The notes beneath the pieces were generated by a model. The model did not search any database and had not been told where the DNA came from. It saw only the letters and a program-made list of their open reading frames with translations. From positions 310,001 to 374,000 of the forward strand of contig JAHBVR010000003.1 in NCBI GenBank assembly GCA_019637395.1: a stretch of 64,000 nt of DNA, read 5' to 3'. How positions within the stretch are numbered: position 1 is the first letter of the stretch; each line of letters opens with the position of its first letter. The position numbers and the translations under genes were made by a program. The stretch is from Vulcanimicrobiota bacterium. Its GTDB lineage: Bacteria; Vulcanimicrobiota; Xenobia; Xenobiales; JADMJV01. Below are positions 40,726 to 45,845 of the stretch, piece by piece.

Positions 40726-43700
40726 ATGTGGCTGACCCGACTGGCTATTCGCAATCCGATCGCCGTGCTCATGGTGAGTCTGGCGGTGGCGGTGCTAGCC
40801 GTGCTCTCGGTGAGCCGGCTGCCCATCGACATGTTCCCGGCCCTGAACATCCCCTGTATTCAGATCAATACCAATTACAGCGGCGCCTCGCCCGAAGAAG
40901 TGGAACGCTCCATCACCTACCCGTTGGAACAGGCCGTCTCGCGCGTGGCCGGTATCGTGCGCGTGCAGTCCACCTCCTCAGTGGGCAAGAGCCAGATTCA
41001 AGTCTGGTTCAACTGGGGAGTCAGCCTGGATTCCTCGCTGGTGCAGGTGATCTCCAACGTGCAGCGCTCCATGGGCTCCCTGCCCTTGGGCATTGACCCC
41101 CCGGCTATTTCGCAGTTTGATGTCTCCAACTTTCCGGTGGTGCAGATCGCCGTGGACGCGCCCACCCTCTCTCCTCAGGAAACCTCGCAACTGGCCGAGT
41201 ATGTGATTTCGCCCCAGTTGGAGCGCATTTCCGGCGTTTCCGACGTGGAGGTGCGCGGCGCCATTATTCGCCAGATCAACGTCAATGTGGACCCGCAGAA
41301 GCTGCAGGCGCGCGGCATTTCGCTGCAGGATGTGCAACAGGCTCTGCGCCAGAACAACCAGTTGGTCCCCAGCGGAGTCTTACGCAACAATCGCCTGGAC
41401 TACCAGTTGGAAGTGCCCACTTTGCTGGAAAGCGTGGAAGACATCTCCCAGGTGGTGGTGACCACCCGCAATGGCGTGCCCATCAAGGTGCGCGATGTGG
41501 CCCGGGTGGAGGACGGCAGCGCCCCGCGCACCGAGATCTACCGGGTCAACGGCCAGGACACCGTATCCTTGTGGGTGCTCATGCAACCACAGGCCAATCT
41601 GGTAGCCCTCTCGGACGATGTTCAGCGGACCCTTCCGCGCATCGCCGGCCTACCCGACGGCGTGGAACTCAAAGTCATCTTCGACCAATCCAACTATATC
41701 CGCACCGCCGTGCGCGGCCTGGAGCACGAAGGACTCACCGGTGCCTTGCTGGTGGCCTTCGTGGTGCTGGTCTTCCTGCGCAACTGGACCAGCGTGGTCA
41801 TCATCTGCGTGGGCATTCCGCTGGCCGTGGCGGCCGCCCTGGTGTGTCTCTATTTTGGTGGCCAGACGTTGAACATTTTCACGTTGGGCGGGCTGACGCT
41901 GGCGCTGGGACGGCTGGTGGATGATGCCATCGTGGTGCGCGAGAACATCACCAGGCATTTGGAAGAAGAAGATTTGAGCGTATCCGAGGCGGTGTTGCGA
42001 GCCACCGGTGAGGTGGGCATGCCGGTGCTGGCTTCCACCCTTACCACGGTGGCCGTCTTTTTCCCGGTCGTCTTCCTGGAGGGGGTTTCGCAAAAGCTCT
42101 TCGTGCCGCTGTCGTTGACCATCATTTTTTCCATGATGGCCTCCTATGTGGTTTCCATGACCATCGATCCGGTGCTTTCCATCGCCTGGACACGGCGTTC
42201 TTCAGGCCCTCCAGGGCGGATCTCGCGCTGGCTGGAAAGCGTGCTGGTGTGGATGGAGGACACCTACGAGCGTTTCCTGCGCCAGGTGTTGCGGCGGGGT
42301 TGGGTGGTGGTGCTGGTGCTGGTGCTCTCACTGGGCTCAGCCCTCATGCTTTCTCCACGGGTCAAGACGGAGTTTTTTCCCGAAAGCGACGAAGGCGTGA
42401 TTACCGTCAACGTGCAGGCTCAGTTGGGCACGGGAGTTCCCACCACCGCCGAGCTTTGCCGGCGCGTGGATCAGATCGTGACTGAGGTGGTCCGTCCCGA
42501 CGAAATCCTGGCCGTGCTCACTTCGGCGGGCAATCCCACCAGCAATCAGGCCCGCATGTTTTTGCGCCTGCGGCCGGCCTTTGAACGCAAACGCGGCGTG
42601 CCGCAGATCTCCGCGGCGCTGCGCAAAGCTCTGGCCGACAAAATTCCGGGCGTGCGTTTATCGGTCAACCCGGGCGGCCTGGCGCGGCGCATTCTGAACT
42701 TCGGCGCGGCCGCCCCCATCGACGTGCAAATCCTGGGTTATGACCAGGACATCGGGGCGCGTCTGGCCTCCGAAATCGAGCGCAAATTGCGTAGCGTTCC
42801 CGGCGCCACCGACATCACGGTGGTTCCTCAGGGTCAGGTTCCTTCGTTTCACGTGAAAATCGATCGGGAGAGGTCCGCCCTGCTGGGGTTGAATCCGACC
42901 CAGGTGGCCAACACCCTGAACACCGCTCTTTCCGGCGGCGTGACGGGCGCCAATCGCTTCGTGGAGCCGAAAAGCGGCAACGAATTTGACCTGGTCACGC
43001 AACTAGAAGAGAATTATCGGACCCATCCAGAGGATTTAGGCGCCGTGCCGGTGGCGGCCCTTTTTTCCGGCGTGGTGGGGCGCGGTTCCCAGGCCACTCC
43101 ACTGGCCCTGCGCAACGTAGCCACTATCACGCTAGGTTCCGCCCCCCTGCAGATTCAGCGCAAAAATCAGGTGCGCGTTATCGATGTGACGGCCAACAAC
43201 AGCCTGCCCCTCGGCGAGGTCTCGGACAATGTCACCAAGATGCTCAAACAGGTGGAAATGCCCGAGGGCTTCACCTGGTATCTGGCCGGCCAGACCGAAC
43301 AGCAGGCGGGCGCTTTCGCGAGCATGATGCTGACGGCGGGACTGGCCCTGATGCTGATTTATATGATCATGGCCTCGCAATTCGGCACTCTTTGGGAGCC
43401 CCTGGTGATCATGCTGACCGTTCCCCTGGGTCTGGTCGGGGTCTGCTGGGCTCAATTGCTGACCGGCACGGCTTTCTCAGTGATGTCGTTCATGGGAGTG
43501 ATCATGATGACCGGCATCGTGGTCAGCAACGGCATTCTGCTGGTGGAATTCTCCAAGACGTTACAGGAGCGCGGCCTGGAACCGCTGGCGGCGGTGGTCA
43601 TGGCCGGGCGCACGCGGTTGCGCCCGATCGTAATGACGGCGCTGGCCACCATCGTGGGAATGATTCCCATGGCCACGGGTTGGGGCGGCGGCTCCGACAC

Positions 43701-43866
43701 CAATCAGCCGCTGGCCCGGGCCGTCATCGGCGGACTGACCGTGTCCACGGTGTTGACACTTCTCGTGATTCCGCTGTTTTATCTATGGATCGGGCGGCTG
43801 GTTGCGCGGAAGGAACGCGTTTCTGTAGCTGAGAAGGAGGCCGGCCGCACAAGTGGGGGGTCCTAG
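40726..43866 (+). CDS. RND (AcrB/HAE1-type) efflux permease
   Basis: Proton-driven inner-membrane multidrug or hydrophobic-compound exporter of 1046 residues with 12 transmembrane helices and two large periplasmic loops. It starts MWLTRLAIRNPIAVLMVSLA. Helix 4 carries the proton-relay pair in LGGLTLALGRLVDDAIVVREN, and the loop after TM9/10 has MSFMGVIMMTGIVVSNGILLVEF. ATG 40726 is 1 bp after the adaptor stop; an upstream in-frame start lies inside the adaptor gene. The last seven residues (GRTSGGS) are encoded by the palindromic repeat array that follows. Confidence 0.96.
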   Translation: MWLTRLAIRNPIAVLMVSLAVAVLAVLSVSRLPIDMFPALNIPCIQINTNYSGASPEEVERSITYPLEQAVSRVAGIVRVQSTSSVGKSQIQVWFNWGVSLDSSLVQVISNVQRSMGSLPLGIDPPAISQFDVSNFPVVQIAVDAPTLSPQETSQLAEYVISPQLERISGVSDVEVRGAIIRQINVNVDPQKLQARGISLQDVQQALRQNNQLVPSGVLRNNRLDYQLEVPTLLESVEDISQVVVTTRNGVPIKVRDVARVEDGSAPRTEIYRVNGQDTVSLWVLMQPQANLVALSDDVQRTLPRIAGLPDGVELKVIFDQSNYIRTAVRGLEHEGLTGALLVAFVVLVFLRNWTSVVIICVGIPLAVAAALVCLYFGGQTLNIFTLGGLTLALGRLVDDAIVVRENITRHLEEEDLSVSEAVLRATGEVGMPVLASTLTTVAVFFPVVFLEGVSQKLFVPLSLTIIFSMMASYVVSMTIDPVLSIAWTRRSSGPPGRISRWLESVLVWMEDTYERFLRQVLRRGWVVVLVLVLSLGSALMLSPRVKTEFFPESDEGVITVNVQAQLGTGVPTTAELCRRVDQIVTEVVRPDEILAVLTSAGNPTSNQARMFLRLRPAFERKRGVPQISAALRKALADKIPGVRLSVNPGGLARRILNFGAAAPIDVQILGYDQDIGARLASEIERKLRSVPGATDITVVPQGQVPSFHVKIDRERSALLGLNPTQVANTLNTALSGGVTGANRFVEPKSGNEFDLVTQLEENYRTHPEDLGAVPVAALFSGVVGRGSQATPLALRNVATITLGSAPLQIQRKNQVRVIDVTANNSLPLGEVSDNVTKMLKQVEMPEGFTWYLAGQTEQQAGAFASMMLTAGLALMLIYMIMASQFGTLWEPLVIMLTVPLGLVGVCWAQLLTGTAFSVMSFMGVIMMTGIVVSNGILLVEFSKTLQERGLEPLAAVVMAGRTRLRPIVMTALATIVGMIPMATGWGGGSDTNQPLARAVIGGLTVSTVLTLLVIPLFYLWIGRLVARKERVSVAEKEAGRTSGGS

Positions 43867-44045
43867 GGGGGGTGCGTTAACCCCCACTAGAACACAAGTG
43901 GGAGGCGCGTTAGCCTCCCTTAGAACACAAAGTGGGGGTCCTAGGGGGAGGCGCGTTAGCCCCCCTTAGAACACAGAGTGGGGGGTCCTAGGGGGGGTGC
44001 GTTAACCCCCACTAGAACACAAGTGGGAGGCGCGTTAGCCTCCCT
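43850..44045. repeat. Compound palindromic repeat array between the RND gene and aspS
   Basis: Five units share the frame CACA(A/G)AGTGGG ... TAGAA. Two are short, with the hairpin GGGAGGC-GCGTTA-GCCTCCC; three are long, with TCCTAGGGGG then a second stem such as GGGGGTGCGTTAACCCCC. The long-plus-short pair of 69 bp occurs twice identically (from 43852 and from 43977) around one intermediate unit, so the array grew by duplication. There are no T-runs, so it is not a terminator set. It lies 20-215 bp before the aspS start. Confidence 0.9.
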
Positions 44046-44066
44046 GGAAATTGGAGCAAGCCGTCT

Positions 44067-45845
44067 ATGCAGGTGCAGCAGTCCATTCAGGTAGAGCCGC
44101 TCGGCAACCTTCGCCGCACTCACACATGCAACCAGATCCGTCCCGAAAATGTAGGGCAACCGGTGACCTTGATGGGTTGGGTGCATCGCCGCCGTGACCT
44201 GGGCGGATTGATCTTCCTGGATCTGCGCGACCGCTACGGTATTACCCAGTGCGTCATCGATCCCGACGCCGGCGAAGCCTTCGGCAAGGCCGAAAGAGTG
44301 CGCAGCGAGTTCGTGCTGGCCGTGACCGGCAAAGTGGCCGCGCGCACCGAAAAGACGGTCAATAAGAACTTGGACACCGGTGGAGTGGAGCTGGTGGTCG
44401 AGTCCCTGCTGATTCTCAATACCTCCAAACCGCTGCCCATTCCCGTGGCCGAAGATACCCAGGTGGATGAATCGCTGCGCATGCAGTATCGCTACCTGGA
44501 TCTGCGCCGCCCGCTCATGTCCAAACACGTATTGTTGCGCCATAAGCTGGCCAAGGCCGTGCGCGATTACATGGACGCCCAGTCGTTCATGGAAATCGAG
44601 ACGCCCATGTTGATGAGTTCCACGCCCGAGGGTGCTCGCGACTACCTGGTGCCCTCGCGTGTCAACAAGGGCAAGTTCTACGCCCTGCCCCAGTCGCCGC
44701 AGATTTTCAAGCAACTGCTGATGGTCAGCGGTCAGGACCGCTATTTTCAGATCGCCCGTTGCTTCCGCGATGAGGACCTGCGCGCCGACCGCCAGCCGGA
44801 GTTCACGCAAATCGACATCGAGATGTCTTTTGTGGGTCAGGAAGATGTCTTCGCCATGGTGGAGGGCCTGGTCCGCCATATGTGGTCCAGCGTCATGAAG
44901 GTGGAGTTGCCGGCCAGGTTTCGCCGCATGCCCTACAGCGAGGCCATTGAGCGCTATGGCAGCGACAAGCCCGACCTGCGCTTCGAACTGGATTTTCACG
45001 AGCTGGAACTGAGTGGCGGCCCGGTTAGCGGCATCGTCAAAGGTTTTCGGGTGGCCGGCAAAGGCGGCCAATCGCGCAAAGAAGGGGACGCCTGGGTAGA
45101 GATGGCCAAAGGATCCGGTCTGGGCGGACTATTTTTTGCCACCGTGGCCGAGGGTGAAGTCAAATCCTCCATCTCCAAGCATGTGGGAGAAGACGCGTTG
45201 AAAGCGGTGGCCGCCAAAGTGGGCGCCCAGAATGGCGATCTGATCGTGATCGGCGCCCATGCCGACCGTAAGAAGCTGAACGCCGCCCTGGGCAAGATCC
45301 GCCTGGAGATGGGCAAAAAATTTGAACTCATGGCCCGGGACCGCTACGAGTTCAGTTGGGTGGTCGATTTCCCGCTTTACGCTCTCAATGAAGAGACGGG
45401 CCAGCTGGAGCCGGAACACCATCCCTTCACCTCGTGCCATCCCGACGATTTTGACAAACTCCGCAACAATCCGGTGGAAGCGCGCGCCGCCGCCTATGAC
45501 CTGGTGCTCAACGGTAACGAGCTGGCCTCCGGGTCGATCCGTATCCACAACCGGGACATGCAGGTGGAAGTATTGTCCAAGACCGGCCTGACCTACGAGG
45601 AGATTCACGCCAAGTTCGGCTTCCTGCTGGACGCCTTCGAATATGGCGCGCCGCCCCACGGTGGCATCGCTCTGGGCCTGGACCGTCTGGTCACCATCTG
45701 CGCCGGTGTCGAATCCATCCGTGAGGTGATCGCCTTCCCGAAAAACCAGCAGGCCCAGTGCCTGCTGACCAATGCTCCGGTCGATCCGACCCAGGAGCAA
45801 CTGGACATTCTCGCCCTGAAAATCGATCAGAGCAAATTGAGTTGA
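44067..45845 (+). CDS. aspS: Aspartyl-tRNA synthetase
   Basis: Class II aminoacyl-tRNA synthetase of bacterial type, 592 residues. The anticodon-binding OB fold comes first (VTLMGWVHRRRDLGGLIFLDLRDRYGITQCV), followed by motif 1 in the FMEIETPMLMSSTPEGARDYLVPSR region, motif 2 (FRDEDLRADRQPEFTQIDIEM), a GAD insertion domain and motif 3 (GGIALGLDRLVTIC). Length and domain order are normal. ATG 44067 has GGAGCAAG upstream; the compound hairpin array precedes it. It is coupled to the cytidine deaminase gene by a TTGA overlap. Confidence 0.97.
   Translation: MQVQQSIQVEPLGNLRRTHTCNQIRPENVGQPVTLMGWVHRRRDLGGLIFLDLRDRYGITQCVIDPDAGEAFGKAERVRSEFVLAVTGKVAARTEKTVNKNLDTGGVELVVESLLILNTSKPLPIPVAEDTQVDESLRMQYRYLDLRRPLMSKHVLLRHKLAKAVRDYMDAQSFMEIETPMLMSSTPEGARDYLVPSRVNKGKFYALPQSPQIFKQLLMVSGQDRYFQIARCFRDEDLRADRQPEFTQIDIEMSFVGQEDVFAMVEGLVRHMWSSVMKVELPARFRRMPYSEAIERYGSDKPDLRFELDFHELELSGGPVSGIVKGFRVAGKGGQSRKEGDAWVEMAKGSGLGGLFFATVAEGEVKSSISKHVGEDALKAVAAKVGAQNGDLIVIGAHADRKKLNAALGKIRLEMGKKFELMARDRYEFSWVVDFPLYALNEETGQLEPEHHPFTSCHPDDFDKLRNNPVEARAAAYDLVLNGNELASGSIRIHNRDMQVEVLSKTGLTYEEIHAKFGFLLDAFEYGAPPHGGIALGLDRLVTICAGVESIREVIAFPKNQQAQCLLTNAPVDPTQEQLDILALKIDQSKLS

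Follow-up and report, generated by a model that had tools for sequence, protein, structure and literature searches.

A palindromic array in front of aspS as a probable, locally expanded site of a dispersed repeat family in a Vulcanimicrobiota bacterium

Introduction

MITEs such as ERIC, BOX and RUP are non-autonomous small repeats with hairpins. In the portion of PMC10969869 drawn on here, ERIC, BOX and RUP are named among the MITEs, and the Rickettsia palindromic elements (RPEs) are presented as short palindromic repeats of about 150 bp, which are found both between genes and in frame in unrelated protein genes. REPs, as far as they are treated in the relevant part of PMC3733652, are located mostly in unidirectional or convergent gaps, beside the 3′ ends of genes, and form head-to-head dimers; the CGTC families of REPs are listed there as having no dedicated transposase. 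The repeat TM_ECO is characterized, in an excerpt of PMC4666352, by a C-G-G order of its runs, stems of 9 nt and no strand bias.

Here, we describe an array of G-rich palindromic units that is found immediately before the gene for a housekeeping enzyme, aspS, in a Vulcanimicrobiota bacterium. The stretch of DNA that was analyzed, referred to as the window, is 64,000 nucleotides (64 kb) long and belongs to a genome of 7.66 Mb (G000). It was compared to four other genomes of the same genus (G001−G004, where G003 is the isolate SZAS-1, record EREM-KAN-1) and, in wider searches, to a set of 38 genomes. Our best reading is that the units form a 5′-leader-biased relative of the known selfish palindromic repeats (of the REP/RPE/MITE kind), and that this family is itself new.

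Structure of the array and its flanking genes

The array spans positions 43850−44049 and is composed of five units arranged head to tail. The original prediction had placed it at 43850−44045, of which the start is correct, but the array extends to 44049. Similarly, the strict alternation of long and short hairpins that had been proposed is replaced by the order long-short-long-long-short, while the exact 69-bp duplication was verified (43852−43920 is identical to 43977−44045). The features of the region are as follows, with coordinates given in the window:

40726..43866, + strand: RND permease gene (ACR_tran, E 5e-252, domain to residue 1022 of 1046)
43752..43849, + strand: 3′ end of the RND gene, with 84% identity to the aspS leader of G001 and TTGACA in both
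43850..43896, + strand: unit 1, long (47 nt), composed of the G-run AAGTGGGGGG, the stem base TCCTAG, a G-run, a loop, a C-run and CTAGAACACA
43864−43866, + strand: stop codon TAG of the RND gene, also contained in unit 1
43897..43929, + strand: unit 2, short, without the GGGGGTCCTAG block; hairpin GGGAGGC-GCGTTA-GCCTCCC
43929..43975, + strand: unit 3, long (47 nt)
43976..44021, + strand: unit 4, long (46 nt), in which the second 69-bp copy (43977−44045) begins
44022..44049, + strand: unit 5, short, with a divergent tail from CTGGAAATTGGAGC
44067..45845, + strand: aspS, a class II tRNA synthetase with an OB fold and a GAD domain

The motif GCGTTARCC occurs five times in the window, each time within the array, while the mean in shuffled sequences is 0.75 and none of 100 shuffles reached five occurrences. 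The short unit, with up to three mismatches allowed, is found three times in the window, where none is expected. Furthermore, none of 200 shuffles of the array folded equally well on either strand (z −2.88 for the + strand and −3.13 for the − strand). These motif counts and the shuffled folding exclude chance as the origin of the array, i.e., the five related palindromic units are present far above what is seen in shuffles.

As had been noted, the array is located directly upstream of aspS, the ATG of which is found at 44067. At the other end, the RND open reading frame (ORF) terminates at 43866 within unit 1 (TCC-TAG). The C-terminus of the permease is indeed encoded by the array, but the seven residues originally assigned to it are reduced to about the last 4−5 because the alignment with the G001 leader puts the start of the array near 43849/43850. 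Judged from its sequence, the segment 43752..43849 is a possible aspS promoter region, for which a strict promoter scan reported no promoter; if this segment does hold the promoter, the array would reside within the aspS 5′ leader.

The permease gene is the last of an efflux cluster (outer membrane factor, membrane-fusion protein and RND permease; 38083−43866 in the window), which is located between a 298-aa ORF, without a Pfam match at 1e-8, and aspS. The RND cluster is not adjacent to aspS in G001−G004. The 298-aa ORF directly precedes aspS in G001−G003 (identified by eye on the sequence in G001 and G003, and from the position of the gene call in G002), and in G004 a different ORF is found directly before aspS.

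The aspS site in related genomes

An array at aspS is missing in all four congeners, i.e., G001, G002, G003 and G004. The aspS leader of G001 displays the common sequence up to GCCGGCCGCA, followed by 13 nt and then TTGGAGCAAGC, and it is at that spot that the array is found in G000. Because all four congeners lack the array at this site, it is, as judged from these alignments, a lineage-specific insertion rather than a conserved regulator of aspS, and the latter candidate was rejected. A dedicated control of aspS, which had been suggested, is also contradicted by the observations that the unit precedes many other genes and resides inside proteins, and that other species run aspS without the array. 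An incidental influence on the expression of aspS is possible; probably, the array forms a leader rich in hairpins that is tolerated and whose effect is mild at the most. On the other hand, the proposal that the array expanded recently agrees with its absence at aspS in the four congeners, with the exact 69-bp duplication and with the whole-unit differences observed elsewhere. The copy number at the locus differs between relatives, and an identical count in distant relatives, which would speak against a recent expansion, did not appear.

Extent of the repeat family

A blastn search with a 77-nt query gave matches at 43 places in G000 at E ≤ 10, of which 23 were found at E ≤ 0.01. At the latter threshold 4 of the 38 genomes match, which are G000 itself and three of the four congeners. 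A covariance model built from 28 units, for which no more than 150 candidates were scored in each genome, identified no fewer than 108 units in G000 (E ≤ 1), which answers the question raised earlier whether the unit is present elsewhere in the genome, as well as at least 125 units in G002, 24 in G001, 15 in G003 and 21 in G004. When applied to the 38 genomes at E ≤ 0.001, seven of these match: all five of the genus, G011 (one match) and G017 (21 matches), where G017 is a genome from another taxonomic family of the same class. In a control with reversed sequences, 168 matches at E < 1e-3 were compared to 0 with the reversed ones. A second covariance model (R2) was set aside on account of its poor structure.

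No Rfam family was found at the gathering score in the 64-kb window, and neither the array nor a strict unit pattern was matched in collections of viral, phage and plasmid sequences; for the strict pattern, the negative result is weak evidence because the pattern skips TCCAGGGG-type units. Searches of the literature on the organism and on 5′-located repeat families retrieved nothing about this palindromic repeat. The array is probably one site of a dispersed, non-coding palindromic family, which was locally expanded after a recent insertion.

Architecture of the unit

One unit of about 45−47 nt is composed of a G-run, a hairpin and a short linker, and the spacing of units within arrays displays a peak at 45−47 nt. 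In an alignment of 51 units the first G-run is nearly invariant, and the units end in AAGTGGGG and GAACACA/GATC. At the stem base 86 of 102 positions are Watson-Crick paired, compared to a mean of 54.4 and a maximum of 68 in 5000 shuffles, in a set that was gathered with a model holding part of the stem and that consequently favors paired units. The dinucleotides at the stem base are found in four complementary forms (TA/TA in 16, CA/TG in 10, AA/TT in 7 and CT/AG in 4 of the 51 units), i.e., the two arms co-vary. Strand-specific RNA folding of single units favors the + strand; this preference was set aside, and not used as evidence, because a G-rich sequence alone would give it. At L175:5884−5950 and L182:5044−5110, the inner palindrome of the loop is enlarged, so that these units look as though one hairpin had entered another.

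The succession of runs is also that of an intrastrand triplex (PIT/TM-like), in which the first G-run would fold onto the G-C hairpin, stall replication and thereby drive instability. Such a structure is compatible with insertion and local expansion of the repeat, and it would accommodate the nearly invariant first G-run and the unstable copy number, as well as the order G-run/loop/G-run/loop/C-run with at least five triads in 41 of the 51 aligned units. However, the spacer that is needed as the loop of the triplex is itself base-paired within the hairpin stem, six triads can be formed in only 10 of the 51 units, and the inner loops measure 8−13 nt; the units fall outside the ITxF limits quoted in the excerpt of PMC4666352 (stems of 6−15 nt and loops of 1−6 nt). 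A triplex is a tentative, rather unlikely addition to the explanation.

Copy number and local expansion

Orthologous sites were compared for the subset for which sequence was available from both species, i.e., not as a full census. Here, L163 holds one unit in G000 and none at the G002 counterpart (L265), L204 holds two units versus none (L216, G002), L175 two versus one (L263) and L173 one versus two (L252). At L166 there are two units in each species (L254), both of which display one and the same A-T/T-A swap in each of their arms, and the sites L169 and L181 are common to G000 and G001. The mean identity is 91% within arrays (57 pairs, 34 arrays), compared to 73% between arrays (561 pairs, where the maximum of 1.0 is due to some loci that overlap). 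In addition, 19 of the 84 arrays have a partial copy of the G-run after their last unit, a number that exceeds the 99th percentile of the random expectation, while none of the 84 has one before the first unit.

The homogeneity within arrays, the regular spacing, the covariation, the unit-wise change in copy number and the terminal partial G-runs all agree with local slippage between direct G-run repeats that flank a hairpin, which is likely to be the step by which the arrays expand. At the locus studied here, a unit would have landed in the leader between the RND gene and aspS and then multiplied by slipped-strand replication, or by recombination between the direct G-run repeats, assisted by the hairpin. 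The short units could be long units from which slippage between the two G-runs has removed a segment, and the complementarity of the arms may be maintained either by hairpin-templated correction or by selection on the hairpin. New sites may be reached through an enzyme that acts in trans, or else by template switching within G-rich sequence.

Genomic location and orientation

The locations are based on gene calls from the author's codon-usage caller rather than a standard annotation and, for G000, on a sample of about 877 kb that was mostly chosen around units. The 53 sites in G000 are distributed over divergent (22) and tandem (20) gaps, gene interiors (9) and ambiguous contexts (2), with none in convergent gaps; the corresponding numbers for the 35 sites in G002 are 13, 13, 3 and 5, with one convergent site. 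The ambiguous sites (2/53 and 5/35, respectively) were dropped from the location counts, and 20 sites at loci of G001, G003 and G004 were excluded because several of these loci overlap. Convergent gaps, which make up 22% (G000) and 16% (G002) of the intergenic bases, hold 0 of 42 and 1 of 27 intergenic sites, respectively (chance P 3e-5 and 0.06, or 2e-4 and 0.04 by junction count). The same picture was obtained in an earlier pass with a narrower model (47 sites in G000, none convergent).

The units also display a polarity. A start codon is found within 25 nt ahead, in the orientation of the unit, at 17 of 42 sites in G000 and, within that distance, behind at 3 (sign P 0.003); the corresponding numbers for the 27 sites in G002 are 8 and 1 (P 0.04). 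Random placement in the present gaps gives a close start codon in 7%. This closeness is partly expected because tandem gaps are short, and when divergent gaps are considered separately the polarity is less pronounced (the closer of the two start codons is ahead at 14 of 21 sites in G000). The array at aspS falls outside the 25-nt cut, with its called end 46 nt from the start codon, because the short last unit scored below the cut-off. Among the 21 related units of G017, several are located at the 3′ ends of genes or close beside them, one pair occupies a convergent gap and 7 reside in a called gene; because these units behave differently, the 5′ bias is a feature of the genus studied here. Units are seen directly before genes that read by eye as ribosomal protein L7/L12 (L115, G004) and rho (L178, G000).

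For the units inside genes of G000 whose translations were inspected, the reading frame is open through the unit. In a Dcp-like M3 peptidase of G000 (L201:5001−5040) and a copper P-type ATPase of G017 (L230:1501−1548), the in-frame unit peptide corresponds to a gap relative to PDB 1y79 and 3j09, respectively. An Hsp20 protein of G002 (L265:1570−1609) also contains a unit peptide, with 115 residues over 101 model positions, and one unit is located in an Fe-S protein (L239). In other words, a palindromic repeat is found in frame inside unrelated protein genes, some of which encode conserved proteins; RPEs display the same trait.

Alternative explanations

The main functional rival is a retained leader function, where the units would be functional 5′-leader RNA with a hairpin beside the Shine-Dalgarno sequence that stabilizes the mRNA or tunes translation, and that is kept where useful. 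The excess of start codons ahead of the units, the compensatory arm changes in the stem and the sites common to two species (L166, L169, L173 and L181) would all follow from such a role. However, the array at aspS is confined to one of five genomes of the genus, the counterparts of L163 and L204 in G002 hold no units, the neighboring genes appear unrelated by eye, units are found in frame inside proteins, and the related units of G017 are often located at gene 3′ ends. We consider this function improbable as an explanation of the family. A combination of mobility and function is similarly improbable: if a mobile palindromic element that lacks a RAYT (REP-associated tyrosine transposase) were directed to ribosome-binding regions, its units could act as leader hairpins that are adjustable and through which expression diversifies among species. 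Here, the G-run would resemble a Shine-Dalgarno stretch, such that units settle pointing at start codons and multiply there as whole hairpin units. In the comparison of L163 with L265 of G002, the empty site already had a GGGGGTC stretch before the ATG, which is what an insertion guided by the G-run would need.

A REP/BIME family mobilized by a RAYT would explain short palindromes that are present in tens to hundreds of copies per genome, mostly between genes and in part within them. Yet a PF01797 search, in which E. coli was positive as a control, identified no intact RAYT-type transposase in G000 and none in G001, G002 or G003. In G000, Y1_Tnp matches only a broken IS200-like fragment, and G002, which is richest in units, is without a Y1_Tnp match (this genome is 82% complete). 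Inspection by eye of the 51-unit alignment revealed no GTAG/CGTC tag at the unit ends, and the location is the reverse of that given for REPs in the part of PMC3733652 referred to above. A RAYT-driven origin is accordingly very unlikely. Apart from the broken copy in G000, Y1 transposase matches in the genus are confined to G004, which has two (L289 and L290). Mobility of the units is inferred, because no mobilizing enzyme was identified. That the array ends the RND mRNA, as originally suggested, or is a general terminator hairpin, would fit the strong hairpins on both strands but is barely tenable, as the + strand has no T-run and the terminator scan at the array gave no + strand site (the absence of T-runs noted earlier holds for this strand, while the − strand has two weak terminator-like sites), and as units avoid convergent gaps, where terminators are expected.

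Comparison with known repeat systems

From the above discussion, the preferred reading is that of a dispersed palindromic repeat with local expansion, which adds a palindromic repeat family from a largely uncultured bacterial group. Because species share or lack single sites, and the copy number shifts by whole units, insertion, expansion and leader effects may be studied in one system. For annotators, the locus is a reminder that a striking array ahead of a housekeeping gene may be a genome-wide repeat.

Within the REP/RPE/MITE kind, the family is set apart from REPs because the defining REP features were looked for and not found. As far as the cited parts of the literature describe them, REP/BIME elements (GTAG, CGTC) are also hairpins (20−40 bp) present in many copies, unevenly distributed among related species and in some cases intragenic, but the units of this genus avoid convergent gaps, are arranged head to tail, and have no tag that we could see and no RAYT. 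PIT/TM_ECO elements, to the extent that they are covered in the source, likewise combine a G-run, a G-run and a C-run in an intergenic hairpin that is unstable between strains; here, the units differ in their G-G-C order, shorter length, co-varying stem base and orientation bias. MITEs are small hairpin repeats as well, but the units lack known insertion-sequence terminal inverted repeats, and no target duplication was seen.

By analogy, the RPEs appear similar in that units are found both between genes and in frame in unrelated proteins. In a comparison by description, from the portion of the source consulted, they differ in length (about 150 bp, compared to 45−47 nt) and in the G-richness, head-to-tail arrays and start-codon bias of the units in this genus. 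With the reservation that the published descriptions were drawn on in part, a location bias opposite to that of published REPs is combined here, in one repeat family, with Rickettsia-like insertions in protein-coding sequence.
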